A DNA stretch of 21,916 nt from a virus. Made by a program: the position numbers and the translations under genes. This document shows positions 5,721-21,121 of the stretch, in pieces. Every line of letters starts with the position of its first letter. Positions within the stretch are counted from its first letter, which is position 1. The stretch covers positions 1-21,916 of IMG/VR virus record IMGVR_UViG_3300018083_000121. The stretch is one strand, 5' to 3'. The notes under the pieces were generated by a model. That model ran no database searches. It saw nothing but the letters and a program-made list of their open reading frames with translations, and had not been told where the DNA came from.

Positions 5721-6219
5721 CGTTGGCAAGATGGTCGATGCTGTGCTCGACACGATCGATAAGCCGTTGCGCGCAATGCATGAGCGCATCAAGGCGGTCG
5801 AGGCCCCCGCGCTACCACCCGATCTGCTCGAGCAGATCAAAAGCGCCGAGGCGGCATTGCGTGAGCCGATGCCGCCGCCTAATGAAACTGCGCCGCCGAT
5901 CGTGCCGGCTGTTCGTGGCGAGCCGACGCGCCGTGTCACCGCCGCCATCATCACGCGCAGCGGCGAACTGGCGTTGTCTTATTCTGACGGCACCAGCGAG
6001 CGGCTCGGCACGGTGATCGGGCCACCGGGCGAGAAGGGCGCGCCGGGCGACCGCGGCGTTGACGGCATCGGCATCAAGGGCGACGACGGGCCGCCGGGCC
6101 GCGACGGTGTTGGCGTGGTTGCAGCTGCGATCAACCGCGCCGGCGAATTGTTGCTGACCATGTCGGATGGATCGGTGCTGACGCCTGGCCGCGTCACCGC
6201 GGCGGCCAAGAAGCCATGA
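5713..6219 (+). CDS. Collagen-like protein, putative head or neck fibre 1
   Basis: This 168-residue protein has three visible parts. Residues 1-50 are a helical, possibly coiled-coil segment, followed by a Pro-rich linker. Residues 103-134 are Gly-X-Y repeats ([13 protein letters not shown] and onward), expected to form a collagen-like trimer. Two related short beta segments flank the collagen part: [20 protein letters not shown] (about 80-99) and [20 protein letters not shown] (about 140-159). The start lies inside the end of the portal gene, and the stop overlaps the next start (ATGA). Collagen-like proteins are common phage fibres, and the place between portal and connector suggests a head or neck attachment. 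No enzymatic motif is seen. Confidence 0.8.
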
Positions 6220-7613
6220 ACGAGCAACTGCGGTTTTTGCGCAAGGCGGTCGAGGGCAAGGGCCGCGCCGACCAGGTTGCGGTGTTTAGCGACAGCGGCA
6301 CGATCGCCGGCAGCGAAGACCTAATCCTCGACAGCAAGGGCAAGCTGCTCAATCTGCGCAAAGCTGTGGTCACGGAAGCGCCGCAGGACGGCAAACTTTA
6401 TGGTCGACGCGATTCTGGCTGGCAGGAGGTTAAAGGCGGCACCGGCATCATCGGCGGCGGTGGTGGTGGCGAGGACGGCGAGGGCGGCGACGGCACGCAA
6501 GGCCCGCCTGGGCCGCAGGGCCCGCGCGGGCCGCAAGGTCCGCCGGGACCGGAAGGCCCGGAAGGGCCGGAAGGAATACAAGGCCCGCCGGGTGCCGACA
6601 GCACTGTGCCGGGGCCGCAAGGGCCGCAAGGCATCCAGGGCGGCAGCGGGCCGGCCGGGCCGCAGGGGCCGGCGGGCGAGCCGGGCCAAAGCTTCACCAC
6701 GTTTGAGTATATGTTTTCATCCACCACGTTCCAACCGCCGACCGGCAGCGAGATACGCTTCAATAACTCGATAGCTACGCTCGTCACCGCCATCTACGTG
6801 ATGAACGTGTCCGCGATCGGCCGTGACAACAGCAACGCATTCACCCTGGTCGATGCCGGCAACAGGTTCTTTGTTCAGGACAAGGACGACGCCACCAAAT
6901 GGGTGTCGTTCGACGCCACCGGGCCGGGTATAGCTCACTCCAATTACTATGAGTTTCCCTGCACATGGCGAGCCAGCGGCCCGGCGGCGCTGGCGCAGCA
7001 GCGCGTTCTCTTCAACATCGCGGTCACCGTAGCCAAGGTATCAGAAGCACCTAATGATGGATTGCAATATGCCCGCCAGAGCTTGGGTTGGGCCGAGGTC
7101 ACGCATCAGTCCTACGGCGGCGTGCAAAACTACATGTTCAACGCATCGGTGCTGCCGCCGCCGGCCGCGGGCGGGGTCCGGCTGAACCATGCGACGCAAA
7201 ATCTCGCCACCGCGATTTTCCTCAACTACATCACCAACGACACCAACGCGATCAACCTGAAAAATTACTTTCTGCAGCGCGTCAAGGTCGGCGACACGTT
7301 TTTTGTCCAAGACAAGGATGCGCCGACCAAGTGGCAGTTGTACGAGTTGATCGCGCCGTTCACCGACAACAGCACCTATGCGACGCTGCCGGTTGCGTGG
7401 CGCGCGGGGGCTTCGCCATTGACTGCGGCGCGGGTGATCATCTCGCGCGAAGGGGCATCGGCTAATTCGCCGGTCGGCGAGGCGCCAAACGACGGCGTCG
7501 CATATTCCCGTAAGAGCTTGGATTGGGCGCCGGCCTTCGTGCAGATGACGCAGGCGGCCTACACGGCGCTTGCCGTCAAAGACCCCAACACGCTCTACGT
7601 GATCGTCGGATAG
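6216..7613 (+). CDS. Collagen-like fibre with two tandem distal modules
   Basis: This 465-residue protein contains a perfect-looking Gly-X-Y tract at about residues 96-158, preceded by a Gly/Asp-rich linker. Downstream lie two related modules, about 164-295 and 305-440. Each begins with YMF, contains FFVQDKD followed by TKW, and ends in a short motif of the form EAP-x-DG-x-x-Y-x-R-x-x-x-x-W. A third copy of that short motif sits at about 54-71, before the collagen tract. This motif recurs in tail and head fibres of many phages, where it separates receptor-binding units. The C terminus ([22 protein letters not shown]) is also a common fibre ending. I infer a trimeric surface-binding fibre. Its receptor cannot be read from sequence. 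Confidence 0.85.
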
Positions 7614-7787: not shown

Positions 7788-8279
7788 ATGTCAGACAAAC
7801 CGCAAACCTTTGCAGACGCGATCGGCGTCTGCCTGGCCCTGTCGCAGCGTTGCCTTGCCGAGGTGCGCGCGTTGGCGCGGCTGCCTGGACCGCCGGGACC
7901 GCCAGGACCAGCGGGCCGCAATGCCATCGACCTCGATCTGTTCAAGGATTACATCAACCAGAGCATTGCCGCCATGCTCGGCGCGGCGTCGGTTGCCTCG
8001 CCGGACGGCGGACGCACGTTGCAATTGTTGCTTGGCGGCAAGGTGCTCGGCGAGGTCAAGACCGCAACCGTGCTCGATGCCGGCGTCTGGAAAGACGGCA
8101 CCGCCTATAGCAAAGGCGACGGCGTCACCTCGGGCGGTTCGTTCTGGATCGCGCAGAGCGAGACTGCAAGCCGGCCCGGCAAAAGTGACGAATGGCGGCT
8201 TGCGGTGAAACGCGGCAACGACGGCCGCGACTATCGCGCAGACGACAAGCGCGCCACCGAGCCGGTCAGGTTCAGCTAA
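7788..8279 (+). CDS. Collagen-like protein with carbohydrate-binding-like module
   Basis: This is a 163-residue protein. A helical N terminus (1-32) leads into a short Gly-X-Y stretch at 34-43 (GPPGPPGPAG), then a helix (DLFKDYINQSIAAML) and a beta-rich C terminus. Residues about 98-139 (GVWKDGTAYSKGDGV, then FWIAQ and EWRLAV) match the general pattern of the small aromatic-rich CBM5/12-type binding module, in which exposed Trp and Tyr residues contact sugars. A related pattern occurs in the fibre gene at 15871. The stop overlaps the next start (TAATG). I infer a third fibre or decoration protein with sugar-binding ability. The module identity is from pattern, not from a search. Confidence 0.78.
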   Translation: MSDKPQTFADAIGVCLALSQRCLAEVRALARLPGPPGPPGPAGRNAIDLDLFKDYINQSIAAMLGAASVASPDGGRTLQLLLGGKVLGEVKTATVLDAGVWKDGTAYSKGDGVTSGGSFWIAQSETASRPGKSDEWRLAVKRGNDGRDYRADDKRATEPVRFS

Positions 8280-16668: not shown

Positions 16669-17556
16669 ATGGTGATCGGCCCGATCCCATTCGACATGCT
16701 GATGCGGCCTGTCAAGTATGTCGAAGGCGGAGGCTTTCTTGTTGCCACGGCTCAGCGCGAGAATTTTTTCGTCCGCCCTGGCAGCCCTGCATCCGTATCG
16801 AAACTGTCATTGCCGGACACCGCATATGGGCCGCTCAACGCAGCCTATGCGACGACCTATCACGCGGGCGTTTATCTGCTGAGCGGCCACGTCAACAAGT
16901 CCGAGGGCGGCCAGGTCGCCGTCATCTACAGGTCGAGCGATGCGCAAACCTGGAAGATCGCATTCACGGGGCCGGGCGAAGGGGACGTTGAGTCGTTCAC
17001 GGGTGCCCTGGTGTGGAACAATGCAACGGCGGGAAAGCCGGGCGCGTTTCATGCTTCATATGTGAGCGGCACGCCAGACCCCGGCAATCCATTCGTGGCG
17101 AATGAATATGAAATTTCGTCGGCGGACGGCATACATTGGTCGAACCAAATCGATCTGGGTGTGGTGGACACGGAGGGCAGTGGCTATCGTTCGCCGTTTC
17201 CCGGCAAATATTGCGGGCATCATAGTTGCGTCGATGAATTCGGCCAGCATGTTCCGGACGGCTTCATGGGTGCGTCGGTACAACCCGTAATGCCGGCACC
17301 GGTTTTTTACAGCCAAGGTGTTGTTGTTAGGCCGACCAAGCCGTCCAACGAGATCAAGGTTATTTCTGGCGCAACGACAACGACTAAAACCGTGCCGGTG
17401 TTTGAGGAGGTTTGGTGTGTTGCGGCGATCGGCGGTGCTTGGCTCGCCGGTAGTGGATTTGATGAGGGGCTGGCCTATTCATCGGATGGCGGCAAGACTT
17501 GGCGCAAGATCGATATCGACGGCTATGCCGGCGTCAACATTTCCGGCAGTTCATAA
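16669..17556 (+). CDS. Sialidase-like beta-propeller tail protein with Asp-box motifs
   Basis: This is a 295-residue protein, likely a beta-propeller. Three Asp-box (BNR-type) motifs are visible: SSDAQTW at about 89-95, SSADGIHW at about 150-157 and SSDGGKTW at about 271-278, the last matching the consensus S-x-D-x-G-x-T-W closely. Such motifs mark sialidases, other glycan hydrolases and many non-enzymatic propellers. Clear arginine-triad sialidase residues are not obvious, so enzyme activity is unproven. The fibre-gene context suggests a surface-glycan binding or degrading role. The ATG lies directly after the previous stop, and the next gene follows after three bases. Confidence 0.72.
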   Translation: MVIGPIPFDMLMRPVKYVEGGGFLVATAQRENFFVRPGSPASVSKLSLPDTAYGPLNAAYATTYHAGVYLLSGHVNKSEGGQVAVIYRSSDAQTWKIAFTGPGEGDVESFTGALVWNNATAGKPGAFHASYVSGTPDPGNPFVANEYEISSADGIHWSNQIDLGVVDTEGSGYRSPFPGKYCGHHSCVDEFGQHVPDGFMGASVQPVMPAPVFYSQGVVVRPTKPSNEIKVISGATTTTKTVPVFEEVWCVAAIGGAWLAGSGFDEGLAYSSDGGKTWRKIDIDGYAGVNISGSS

Positions 17557-17559
17557 GCC

Positions 17560-18588
17560 ATGCTGGTCTGCAGCGTCGTCCAGCGCCCGCAGCGCCATGT
17601 TCTCGCAGCGAATATCATTGAGATTGCTGCAGCCATAGATAACCCAAGCTCGGGCACAATCTTCGTCACGCTGACTGACGATCCTGGCAACGCGCGCGAT
17701 CTGCTCGATGCGTTCCTCGGGCAGAAGATCGTTGAGGCAGCGAATGCGACTGACGTGGTCGATGCGCTGTCGGCTCACCCAGTCTTGCTGCTGGAGGACA
17801 TCAGCGCAGCGGTTGCTGTGCAGGATGCCACTATCAACGCGGTAACAGGCTGGGCGACTTTCGAGCCAGCAATGTCATCGAATGTCACGCTGTCAGGCGG
17901 CAACCTTATCGCCACCAATACCGCCAAGTCGCCAACCAACCAGGGCGCAAGCGTTGCCGCGCAGTATGCCAAGACAATCGGCAAGTATTATTTCGAGCCG
18001 ACGTTCATCACCTTTACCGGCGGCGACAATGTGGGCGTCGGCGTCGGCACCACAACATCGACCTATGGCGGTCTCGGCGGCTCGGCGACGACCGGCAATA
18101 ACGGACTGCATTCTGGTGGCATCTGGGCGAACGGAACAAACACCGGCGTCACGCTCGGCTTGTACGGCGACGGACAGGTCGCAGGGGTCGCCGTCGATCT
18201 GGACAACCGCAAGATATGGTTCAAGCGACTGCCGTCCGGCAACTGGAACAACAGCGGCACCGCCAACCCAGCTACCAATACCGGCGGCATAACAATTCCG
18301 GCTGGCGGGATGGTGCCGTTTGCTACGTTCGGCGGGGGTGGCGGTGCTGCGAACAATGTCGTGGCGGCCAATTTCGGGGCCTCGGCTTTCAGCGGCGCAG
18401 TGCCGTCCGGCTTTATCCCCGGCTGGCCGATTGGCCCGACTGCAGCGGTCACCGAGGCGGCATCGGCTACCGCAGCGCAGGACGGCGTGAAGGTGGTGGC
18501 GCGCAGCGGCATGGTCATCACCACGATGGTCAACTCGGACGGAACGGCGCGTCAGGCCAACGCCGATGGCACCATGGTCAATCTGTAG
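17560..18588 (+). CDS. Tail protein with inserted SPRY-like module
   Basis: This is a 342-residue protein. The N-terminal portion (about 1-100, RHVLAANIIEIAAAIDNP then TIFVTLTDDPGNARDLLDA) resembles a known tail protein family of Hyphomicrobiales phages. Residues about 108-289 are a SPRY/B30.2-like jelly-roll: NVTLSGGNL, GKYYFEP, VGVGTTTSTY, IWANGT, GDGQVAGVAVDLDNRKIWF, FATFGGG, and a final AVPSGF then GW. The C terminus (QDGVKVVARSGMVITTMVN and onward) then resumes a different, short sequence that seems to continue the N-terminal family. The same module recurs in the next gene. SPRY domains bind protein or glycan ligands, so receptor recognition is a reasonable inference. No enzymatic residues were identified. 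Confidence 0.78.
   Translation: MLVCSVVQRPQRHVLAANIIEIAAAIDNPSSGTIFVTLTDDPGNARDLLDAFLGQKIVEAANATDVVDALSAHPVLLLEDISAAVAVQDATINAVTGWATFEPAMSSNVTLSGGNLIATNTAKSPTNQGASVAAQYAKTIGKYYFEPTFITFTGGDNVGVGVGTTTSTYGGLGGSATTGNNGLHSGGIWANGTNTGVTLGLYGDGQVAGVAVDLDNRKIWFKRLPSGNWNNSGTANPATNTGGITIPAGGMVPFATFGGGGGAANNVVAANFGASAFSGAVPSGFIPGWPIGPTAAVTEAASATAAQDGVKVVARSGMVITTMVNSDGTARQANADGTMVNL
17881..18426 (+). repeat. SPRY-like module, copy 1
   Basis: This 182-codon segment runs from NVTLSGGNL to PSGFIPGW. It is related at protein level to the segment at 19824-20381: both share NVTLSGGNL, TGKYYFE or IGKYYFE, DLDNRK followed by WF, PATNTGG or PVTNTGG, a Gly-rich HFGGGG or TFGGGG strand, and AVPSGF. DNA identity is patchy, so the copies diverged after duplication or were acquired separately. 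Confidence 0.7.
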
Positions 18589-18596
18589 GAACGCGA

Positions 18597-20516
18597 ATGG
18601 CACTCAAATATCTATGGTCGGGGGCGACGGGGGCCGGCACAGGCGCCAACTGGGCCAATGCCTACACGACCCTCAATCCGATAACCGTGGCGGCCGGCGA
18701 TACGTTGTTCGTCGCGCACGATCATTCCGAACTGACGACCAACACCAACCCTGGAACTTGGAGCACCACTGTCAGCAACCCGAGCAAGGTCGTCTGCGTC
18801 AATCGCCTGGGCTCAGTGCCGCCGGTCTCGGCCGATCGGCGCGCGACTGCAGTGATCGCAACGTCTGGCGATACCAATCTCACCTTGACCGGGATCGTTC
18901 ACTACGACGGCATCATCTTTATCGCTGGCAACAGCACCGGCAGTCCGTTCATTCGACCCGGCACAGTTGTCGCCGGCTGGATTCGTTTTGATAATTGTTC
19001 GCTGCGGATCGGCTCATCGGGTGCCTCGGGCTACATCGACATCACCTATCAAAACGGAACCATTGTCGAATGGAACAACACGACAGTCTCCTTCGCCAAT
19101 GTCAGTCAGGGCCTGACATGGGAAGGGTCCAATAGGTTTGTCTGGCGCAATACGCCGTCGGCATTGCTCGGAACGATCCCGACCGTCCTGTTCAAGCCGA
19201 ATGTTACTTATGGAAGCGACATCGAGTGCATCGGCGTCGATCTGTCGGCTGCGGGCTCTGGCAAGACGATCTTCGGCACCATAGCCAATGGTCAGGTTTG
19301 TAAATACAGGCTGATCGACTGCAAGCTCGATGCTGCGGTAACCAGGAATGCTGCGCTTACCTTGTTTTCCAACAGTGTCGAGTTTGTGCGCTCGGGCGCC
19401 GCGGGGGTCAATTATCAAGTTTACCGTCAGCAGATGACCGGGACGCTTACCGAAGAGACATCGGTTGTGCGCACCACCGGCGGCGCATCGGACGGCACCA
19501 CGCCGCTGAGCTGGAAAATAGCCACGACCGCGAACGCCAACTATTCGGAACCGTTTGAATCGCCCCCGATTGCGATCTGGAACAACACCGTCGGCTCGGC
19601 CGTCACCGCGACGGTCGAGGGCATCTGGGGTGGCACCGCGCTGCCGAACGATGACGAGTGTTGGATCGACGTCGAGTTCCTGGGCAGCAGCTCCTCGCCG
19701 CAGGGCTCATTCGTCAACGACGGCAAGGCAAACCTGTTGGCGACGGCGGCGGCGCAGACTACCAGCAGCGCTGCGTGGGCGTTCGCGACGGCGACATCGG
19801 CATGGGATGCGGCAACCGTTGCCAACGTCACGCTATCCGGCGGCAATCTTGTCGTTACCAATACCAGCACGGCCGCTGAAACCGGCGCCCGGCTAGCGGC
19901 TGCGTTAGGCAAGACAACCGGCAAATACTATTTCGAGATTACCACCACGACCATGGTCGGCACCGCGGGCGGCAATGCCGGGTTCGGTGTGGCTACCACG
20001 GCTTCGACCTACACCGCCATGGGCAACAATGCGACGGCTGGCGCAGCGTTATATCCCGGCAACGGCAGTTGTTGGTCGAATGGAGTCAATCAAATAAATG
20101 GCATCGGGCCAATGTCGAGCGGCGACGTGTGCGGCATTGCTATCGACCTCGACAACCGCAAAGCCTGGTTCCGTAAAGGTGCGTCCGGTAACTGGCTAAA
20201 CGGAGTGATCGGCGTGCAGAACCCGGTGACCAATACCGGCGGCAACCCGATTCCGGCGGGCACCATCGCGCCGATTTGTCATTTCGGTGGTGGCGGCGCT
20301 ACCACCGGAAACGTTTGGACGGCAAACTTCGGCGCAACGGCTTTTGTTGGTGCGGTGCCGTCCGGGTTTACGTCTGGCTGGACATCGGTGCCGCCACCGG
20401 CGTTCAAGCTCGCGGCAACATTCACGCCGCAGCAGAAGGGCTGGATCTACGCCCGCGCGAAATGCGCCGCGGGGTTGAGCACGTTCTACATCGACCCGTT
20501 GGTCACGCTGACCTGA
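18597..20516 (+). CDS. Beta-rich tailspike-like protein with inserted SPRY-like module
   Basis: This is a 639-residue protein. ATG 18597 follows AGGA by six bases; an extension to 18216 would run through the previous gene. The N terminus (MALKYLWSGATGAGTGANW and AYTTLNPITVAAGDTLFVA) and the repeating short strands that follow (YDGIIFIAG, GWIRFDNCSL, YRLIDCKLD) suggest a right-handed beta-helix of the pectate-lyase or tailspike type. Residues about 380-390 (TTSSAAW) look like a C-terminal domain that is interrupted by a SPRY-like module (about 410-595) and resumes at FKLAATFTPQQKGWIYARAK and YIDPLVTLT. The beta-helix could bind or cleave a surface polysaccharide, but catalytic acids cannot be assigned. 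Confidence 0.78.
   Translation: MALKYLWSGATGAGTGANWANAYTTLNPITVAAGDTLFVAHDHSELTTNTNPGTWSTTVSNPSKVVCVNRLGSVPPVSADRRATAVIATSGDTNLTLTGIVHYDGIIFIAGNSTGSPFIRPGTVVAGWIRFDNCSLRIGSSGASGYIDITYQNGTIVEWNNTTVSFANVSQGLTWEGSNRFVWRNTPSALLGTIPTVLFKPNVTYGSDIECIGVDLSAAGSGKTIFGTIANGQVCKYRLIDCKLDAAVTRNAALTLFSNSVEFVRSGAAGVNYQVYRQQMTGTLTEETSVVRTTGGASDGTTPLSWKIATTANANYSEPFESPPIAIWNNTVGSAVTATVEGIWGGTALPNDDECWIDVEFLGSSSSPQGSFVNDGKANLLATAAAQTTSSAAWAFATATSAWDAATVANVTLSGGNLVVTNTSTAAETGARLAAALGKTTGKYYFEITTTTMVGTAGGNAGFGVATTASTYTAMGNNATAGAALYPGNGSCWSNGVNQINGIGPMSSGDVCGIAIDLDNRKAWFRKGASGNWLNGVIGVQNPVTNTGGNPIPAGTIAPICHFGGGGATTGNVWTANFGATAFVGAVPSGFTSGWTSVPPPAFKLAATFTPQQKGWIYARAKCAAGLSTFYIDPLVTLT
19824..20381 (+). repeat. SPRY-like module, copy 2
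   Basis: This 186-codon segment runs from NVTLSGGNL to PSGFTSGW and is the partner of the module at 17881-18426. It contains TGKYYFEI, the central CGIAIDLDNRKAWFRKG strand pair, PVTNTGG, and FGATAFVGAVPSGF. It is embedded inside the tailspike-like protein rather than standing at either end. Confidence 0.7.
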
Positions 20517-20536: not shown

Positions 20537-21121
20537 ATGACTGAAGAAACCGCGCAGGCGCGCGAGTGCAATGATGCTTGCGTGATCCGGGGCAGCGGCC
20601 TCAGTGAGCAGGCCGAGGCACATGGCCGTTATGTGTTTGAATGCCGCGATGCCGACGGCAAGCTCAAATGGCGCGAGACGATCGACAATATCGTTTGCAC
20701 CGTCGGGAAGAACCTGATGCTGGACACAGCGCTGGCGGGTTCGGCCTATACCGTGGTCGGGCCTTTCATGGGTTTGATCTCGTCAGTGTCCTTCACCGCA
20801 GTTGCGGTGGGCGACACGATGACCTCGCACACTGGATGGCTGGAGGGGGGCGGTACCAACGCGCCTGCCTATTCCGGCAACCGCAAAACCGCAGTTTGGT
20901 CGGCAGCAACTGCAGGGTCGAAAACACTATCGGCGGCGCTGGTCTATGCGATCACCTCGAGCGGCACGATCAAGGGAGCATTCCTGGTGTATGGCACCGG
21001 GGCCTCGGCCACCAAGGACGACACGGGCGGCACGTTGTGGAGCGCTGGCACGTTTGCGACCGGCGACAAGGCCGTCGTCAATGGCGATTCGCTGAACGTT
21101 AGCTATTCCACGTCGCTGTAA
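20537..21121 (+). CDS. Conserved phage fibre-associated protein
   Basis: This is a 194-residue protein. ATG 20537 follows GGAGA by six bases; the frame is open upstream but overlaps the previous gene. The first 50 residues (GRYVFECRDADGKLKWRETIDN) precede a conserved block: VCTVGKNLMLDTAL, MGLISSVSFTAVAVGDTM, TSHTGWLEGG, and a C-terminal GTLWSAGTFATGDKAVVNGDSLNVSYS. I recognise this block from a widespread family of phage proteins close to tail fibre genes, with unknown exact function. Its repeated strand pattern suggests a beta-sandwich. The stop overlaps the next start (TAATG), linking it to the lysis genes. Confidence 0.8.
   Translation: MTEETAQARECNDACVIRGSGLSEQAEAHGRYVFECRDADGKLKWRETIDNIVCTVGKNLMLDTALAGSAYTVVGPFMGLISSVSFTAVAVGDTMTSHTGWLEGGGTNAPAYSGNRKTAVWSAATAGSKTLSAALVYAITSSGTIKGAFLVYGTGASATKDDTGGTLWSAGTFATGDKAVVNGDSLNVSYSTSL

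Follow-up and report, generated by a model that had tools for sequence, protein, structure and literature searches.

In the tail-fibre region of a metagenomic fragment of a tailed phage, two adjoining genes, here called A and B, share a module that we regard, with good confidence, as an exchangeable lectin-like unit of the SPRY (B30.2) type, which probably binds the host surface and which was gained in a loop of the gene B protein and follows a linker in the gene A protein. The computational basis for this view covers homology and fold, the existence of both empty and filled sites, repeated change and exchange between scaffolds. The phages of this group thus seem to remodel the proteins with which they probably bind their hosts, by moving entire domains into and out of fixed positions.

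Genes A and B adjoin in a 21,916-base IMG/VR record, the whole of which is referred to as the window. The record also encodes a terminase, a fused protease-capsid protein, a portal, an adaptor, a tail tube, a tape measure, tail-end proteins and a lysozyme. Genes A and B are flanked by the tail genes on one side and the lysozyme gene on the other, and their products would be parts of the virion. Both genes with their parts, and the anchor gene introduced below, lie on the plus strand. Gene A (17560..18588, 342 aa) is an open reading frame with homologues that carry the module and others that do not. It consists of an N-terminal part (A_N, 17560..17850) that starts with MLVC, contains E-A-x-x-A-x-D repeats and is common to dozens of relatives, of module copy A (17851..18429, residues 98-290) and of one further repeat followed by a short tail ending in SDGTARQANADGTMVNL (A_C, 18430..18588), the tail being present in module-less relatives as well. 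For gene B, the open reading frame list gives a start at 18216 that overlaps gene A; the most likely start is the ATG at 18597, yielding a fibre-like protein of 639 aa (18597..20516). Its long strand-rich part and the first strands of a C-terminal domain (18597..19778) end at W394. They are followed by a stretch without counterpart in relatives, which is module copy B (19779..20402, residues 395-602; core at 19788-20378, residues 398-594), and by the last strands of the C-terminal domain (20403..20513), which begin with FKLAATFTPQQKGW.

A conserved gene further downstream (20585..21121, 74-80% identity among relatives) served as a module-independent anchor for sampling loci. Nearly all relatives are metagenomic contigs, just as the window itself is a metagenomic fragment. 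Searches against named phages with megablast and tblastn returned no close relative and only distant SPRY matches, and a single scan of genome contigs matched two contigs from metagenome-assembled genomes (MAGs), with no informative host. One copy of the anchor gene (locus L156) belongs to a Methanomicrobiales MAG, into which a phage contig was probably mis-binned. Elsewhere in the window, the protein encoded at 16669-17556 shows a weak BNR/Asp-box match and is found in some relatives only, at 23-29% identity; it therefore counts as another variable tail-end gene. Two collagen-like proteins with GPP repeats (6216-7613 and 7788-8279) are encoded a short distance behind the portal gene, and the second resembles, in its last part, the C-terminal end of the portal profiles phrog_1289 and phrog_2271. 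We rejected the idea that this frame is the split-off end of a portal: the protein is collagen-like, and the match probably reflects a small domain that some portal profiles contain as well.

The module comprises about 195 residues in both proteins. A local alignment of the gene A and gene B proteins scored 510, whereas the best of 200 shuffles reached 94, and the two copies share 53% identity over some 193 amino acids (tblastn, E 2e-49), while the N-terminal flanks show no similarity to each other (best BLASTP E 4.4). The initial annotation had described one SPRY-like module in two otherwise different neighbouring proteins, and this description holds; the limits it gave (17881, 18426 and 20381) are close to those found here, except that FKLAATFTPQQKGW begins at 20403. 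When the single sequences were compared with Pfam PF00622, they reached 18.1 and 21.8 bits and thus stayed below the gathering score of 26.3, which is a curator's cut-off and not a biological property. Profile searches retrieved the B30.2 domains of TRIM9 (E 1.1e-9) and TRIM67 (E 5.5e-9) as well as RanBP10 (E 7e-7), and the predicted fold superimposes on the SPRY domain of Ash2L with a Z score of 21.1 and an rmsd of 2.2 Å over 172 residues, Z scores for Ash2L, DDX1 and RanBP10 being 20-21 throughout and Foldseek TM scores against SPRY structures, normalized by target, reaching up to 0.82. The SPRY beta-sandwich fold and profile similarity to solved SPRY domains are both present, and the module is a divergent SPRY-fold domain that falls outside PF00622 by Pfam's rule. 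Both copies also match the first 195 positions of phrog_10080 (E 8e-17 and 3e-20), a profile of 667 positions without assigned function, the match being confined to its module part. Variation within the module is highest in loops and lowest in the core, in the WNNSGTANPATNTGG stretch and at the edges. Raised third-position (synonymous) identity at the module edges was looked for as a trace of recent recombination, and none was seen. SPRY domains are protein-interaction domains and are best known from eukaryotic immunity and signalling. Since the well-studied ones bind mostly proteins and peptides, a sugar ligand is not to be assumed here.

For gene B, the insertion view holds. Relatives align along the full length of the protein, apart from about 200 residues, with 56-61% identity to the module-less ones before the module and 81-89% identity in the C terminus behind it. 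Where the window reads ...QTTSSAAW-[AFATATSAWD...GWTSVPPPA]-FKLAATFTPQQKGW, its relative L004 reads ...QTSSSATW-GGSTTK-FKLNVTFTPQQKGW. Among 92 distinct scaffolds, 72 are empty (defined as fewer than 20 residues between the flank matches), ten carry SPRY and another ten a different insert. Empty relatives have a loop of some six residues, such as GGSTTK, at the site of the module, and all empty joints fall at one position (SAAW-[module]-FKL in the window, SATW-GGSTTK-FKL in relatives). In the AlphaFold2 model of the gene B protein (mean pLDDT 91.3, pTM 0.76), the long strand-rich part comes first, strands run up to residues 370-374 and resume at 602-632, and SPRY is located between them. We read SPRY in this model as a nested domain within the C-terminal strand domain, and strand order together with the empty relatives suggests that the strands on either side form one sandwich. 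The strand pattern tentatively points to a beta-helical fold for the preceding strand-rich part. None of the PDB matches except SPRY covers the scaffold well; the best match to a tailspike, 5w6h, is weak (probability 0.85, rmsd 17.7). The proposal in the initial annotation that the module interrupts another domain is borne out for gene B, by the 72 relatives of 92 that lack the insert at one clean joint and by the split strand domain of the model.

In the tree of gene B scaffolds, the window is the sole filled row within a supported (starred) clade of 22 rows, and its nearest rows are empty. The filled state needs eight changes, at least five of which are forced by starred branches, on a tree that is unrooted, so that the distinction between gain and loss rests on parsimony. 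The same loop also accepts unrelated cargo. The alternative insert (L134, L184, L186, L197, L200, L204, L206, L208, L209 and L222) has 67-72 residues and yielded no Pfam match (L184 and L134); by eye only, it resembles CBM5/12-like domains. This small domain (ARANSTAYxxGDxxKVASNxGRxFxCTTAGTSxxSEP...DGxxxxDGxAxF) is also found in two copies at the N terminus of some gene B proteins, and such N-terminal extensions were seen in L007, L023, L027, L032, L076 and L077. In L027, SPRY sits within the other insert, between SEP and GYATA, and in its sister on the tree, L134, the other insert stands alone and uninterrupted. One gene of L007 (6704-8605) contains two SPRY modules in tandem; the second is preceded by an apparent copy of the last strand of the scaffold (VLAANAVVASDGSSW). 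SPRY is one of several options for a single loop of the C-terminal strand domain, in which it was probably gained as a nested domain: empty, filled with SPRY, filled with an unrelated domain of about 70 residues, or filled with SPRY nested in that domain.

Gene A presents a different picture. Its relatives are of four kinds, which end in the short tail, in SPRY, in laminin-G-like or other domains, or, as in the window and L163, in SPRY followed by the short tail. In the module-less L004, L005, L011, L006, L160 and L167, the A_C tail directly follows the A_N repeats. SPRY is replaced by a laminin-G-like or another domain in L146, L147, L148, L154, L139, L145, L096 and L116; the laminin-G-like end of L146 was recognized with an E value of 2.5e-14, and L146-L148 and L154 carry a near-identical laminin-G end on differing N-terminal parts. 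The A_N repeats and the start of the tail were predicted with low confidence (pLDDT mostly below 50 in A_N, which is probably disordered). Because low-confidence linker repeats flank the module on both sides, no folded part is seen interrupted, and for gene A the insertion view is right in part only. It is equally likely that the module was inserted and that it once ended the gene and had the tail joined on behind it. In either case, SPRY follows a linker that elsewhere leads into SPRY, into a laminin-G-like or another domain, or into nothing at all. Versions without the module thus exist for both scaffolds, and the situation in which all homologues carry it at the same place and trees indicate old separate inheritance was not encountered.

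What the module does can be approached by analogy. Most likely, SPRY units would be added or exchanged at exposed sites of the fibre and would change or strengthen contact with the cell surface; the domain would bind a ligand there, and its gain would alter host recognition. As SPRY domains are protein-interaction domains, a structural or assembly role, in fibre folding or in contact with a virion protein, has to be weighed against receptor binding. We consider such a role unlikely: most scaffolds do without the module, which occurs in about 36 different flank clusters (a count that includes truncated open reading frames) and swaps with laminin-G-like and other domains.

The closest parallel is the evolved Dit of lactococcal skunaviruses with its CBM inserts, in which a binding module also resides inside a tail protein whose flanks align to insert-free relatives (PMC10688798, PMC6669499); the 72 empty gene B relatives, with the insert absent and the flanks aligned, exhibit just this pattern. 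As here, many alternative inserts are known for Dit, and the Dit inserts have been shown to aid adsorption (PMC10688798, PMC6669499), in one case by letting the phage adsorb to hosts that bear a particular exopolysaccharide (PMC10688798). The scaffold described here is strand-rich and fibre-like, and its insert is SPRY, a small domain or one within the other; as no Dit family or Dit structure was among the matches to gene B, we do not class it as an evolved Dit. Tail fibres and further parts of phage virions are reported to contain SPRY and laminin-G lectin domains (PMC7824862). Our case resembles the SPRY and laminin-G3 lectin domains of these jumbo phages in that SPRY is part of tail-fibre or virion proteins, as the products of genes A and B would be, and differs in that the passage concerned notes their presence, with no mention of sites left empty, of repeated gain or of nesting (PMC7824862). 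For phage receptor-binding proteins, homologous domains across otherwise unrelated adhesion proteins and exchange of C-terminal binding domains are on record (PMC10684548), and module shuffling in phage adhesion proteins is already known. SPRY is not mentioned in that work, and its passages on the subject do not describe a docking site within a loop or alternation between two genes (PMC10684548). New here are one site with different cargoes, nesting, and the alternation of genes A and B. Host binding by the module is likely.

Exchange between scaffolds is evident from a tree of 91 modules. Only starred groups were used, as the bootstrap had not settled completely and support is low for many inner branches. 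On this tree, the context (gene A, gene B or other) changes at least 21 times, and gene B alone accounts for eight changes. The swapping between scaffolds suggested at the outset is in line with this mixing of contexts. Transfer between A and B within this genome is not evident from the tree: the copies in the window do not form a pair, and copy A is joined instead with copy A of L163 (78% identity, support 100/100). Recent copying of the module between the two genes, in either direction, within the phage lineage might be favoured by the presence of both window copies in one starred clade of 14 rows, in which the position of copy B is not settled, and by same-genome pairs being on average closer than random (2 of 5000 permutations were as low). 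Yet the window pair is not notably close among such pairs; copy A is only about 53% identical to copy B, and seven rows are nearer to copy B, and ten nearer to copy A, than the two copies are to each other. A recent local duplication is therefore not supported, and recent copying between the two genes is distinctly improbable.

It is very unlikely, furthermore, that the gene B loop ancestrally carried the module and lost it over and over again. The change counts are independent of the root and hence allow for losses, but filled scaffolds are scattered among the 72 empty ones, the modules in the loop stem from several module clades, ten other scaffolds hold the unrelated domain in the same loop, and the agreement between module tree and scaffold tree that an ancestral module predicts is at odds with the present trees, which look discordant. 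An assembly chimera, conceivable in a 21.9 kb fragment of uncultured origin, can practically be dismissed, with reading frames intact at both joints, identical joints in independent contigs and the same gene A arrangement in L163, which comes from another sample.

Sampling through the downstream anchor gene uncovered a relation between the two genes. Of 28 distinct loci whose gene A terminates in a binding-type domain, 27 lack gene B, and all 23 loci with a short gene A possess it. The alternation recurs in ten independent pairs on the tree of the 675-residue tail protein (sign test, p ~0.002; the pair set adds loci fetched through genes A and B themselves). A binding-type domain on gene A and a gene B are combined in the window and L163, which are sisters on the tail-protein tree, and in L027. 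The short gene A tail ending ...MVNL goes with a gene B without N-terminal extension; other tails go with a gene B whose N terminus bears the small domain twice. Gene A may therefore encode an adaptor that either bears a binding domain itself or holds the gene B protein, and the tail retained in gene A of the window would fit this reading. It is quite conceivable, if somewhat short of probable, that the loop after W394 is a standing port for unrelated binding modules, even nested ones, and that genes A and B provide either/or adhesion, with the type of the gene A tail matching the N-terminal type of gene B.

The loci assembled here constitute a natural series of one fibre protein in which a loop is empty, filled with SPRY, filled with another domain or filled with one nested in the other. 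Such a series lets one ask what effect an added module has on adsorption and how far the loop of a folded fibre domain tolerates insertion. It also suggests that phages make frequent use of SPRY domains, and it yields a rule, open to testing, on which adhesion genes occur together.
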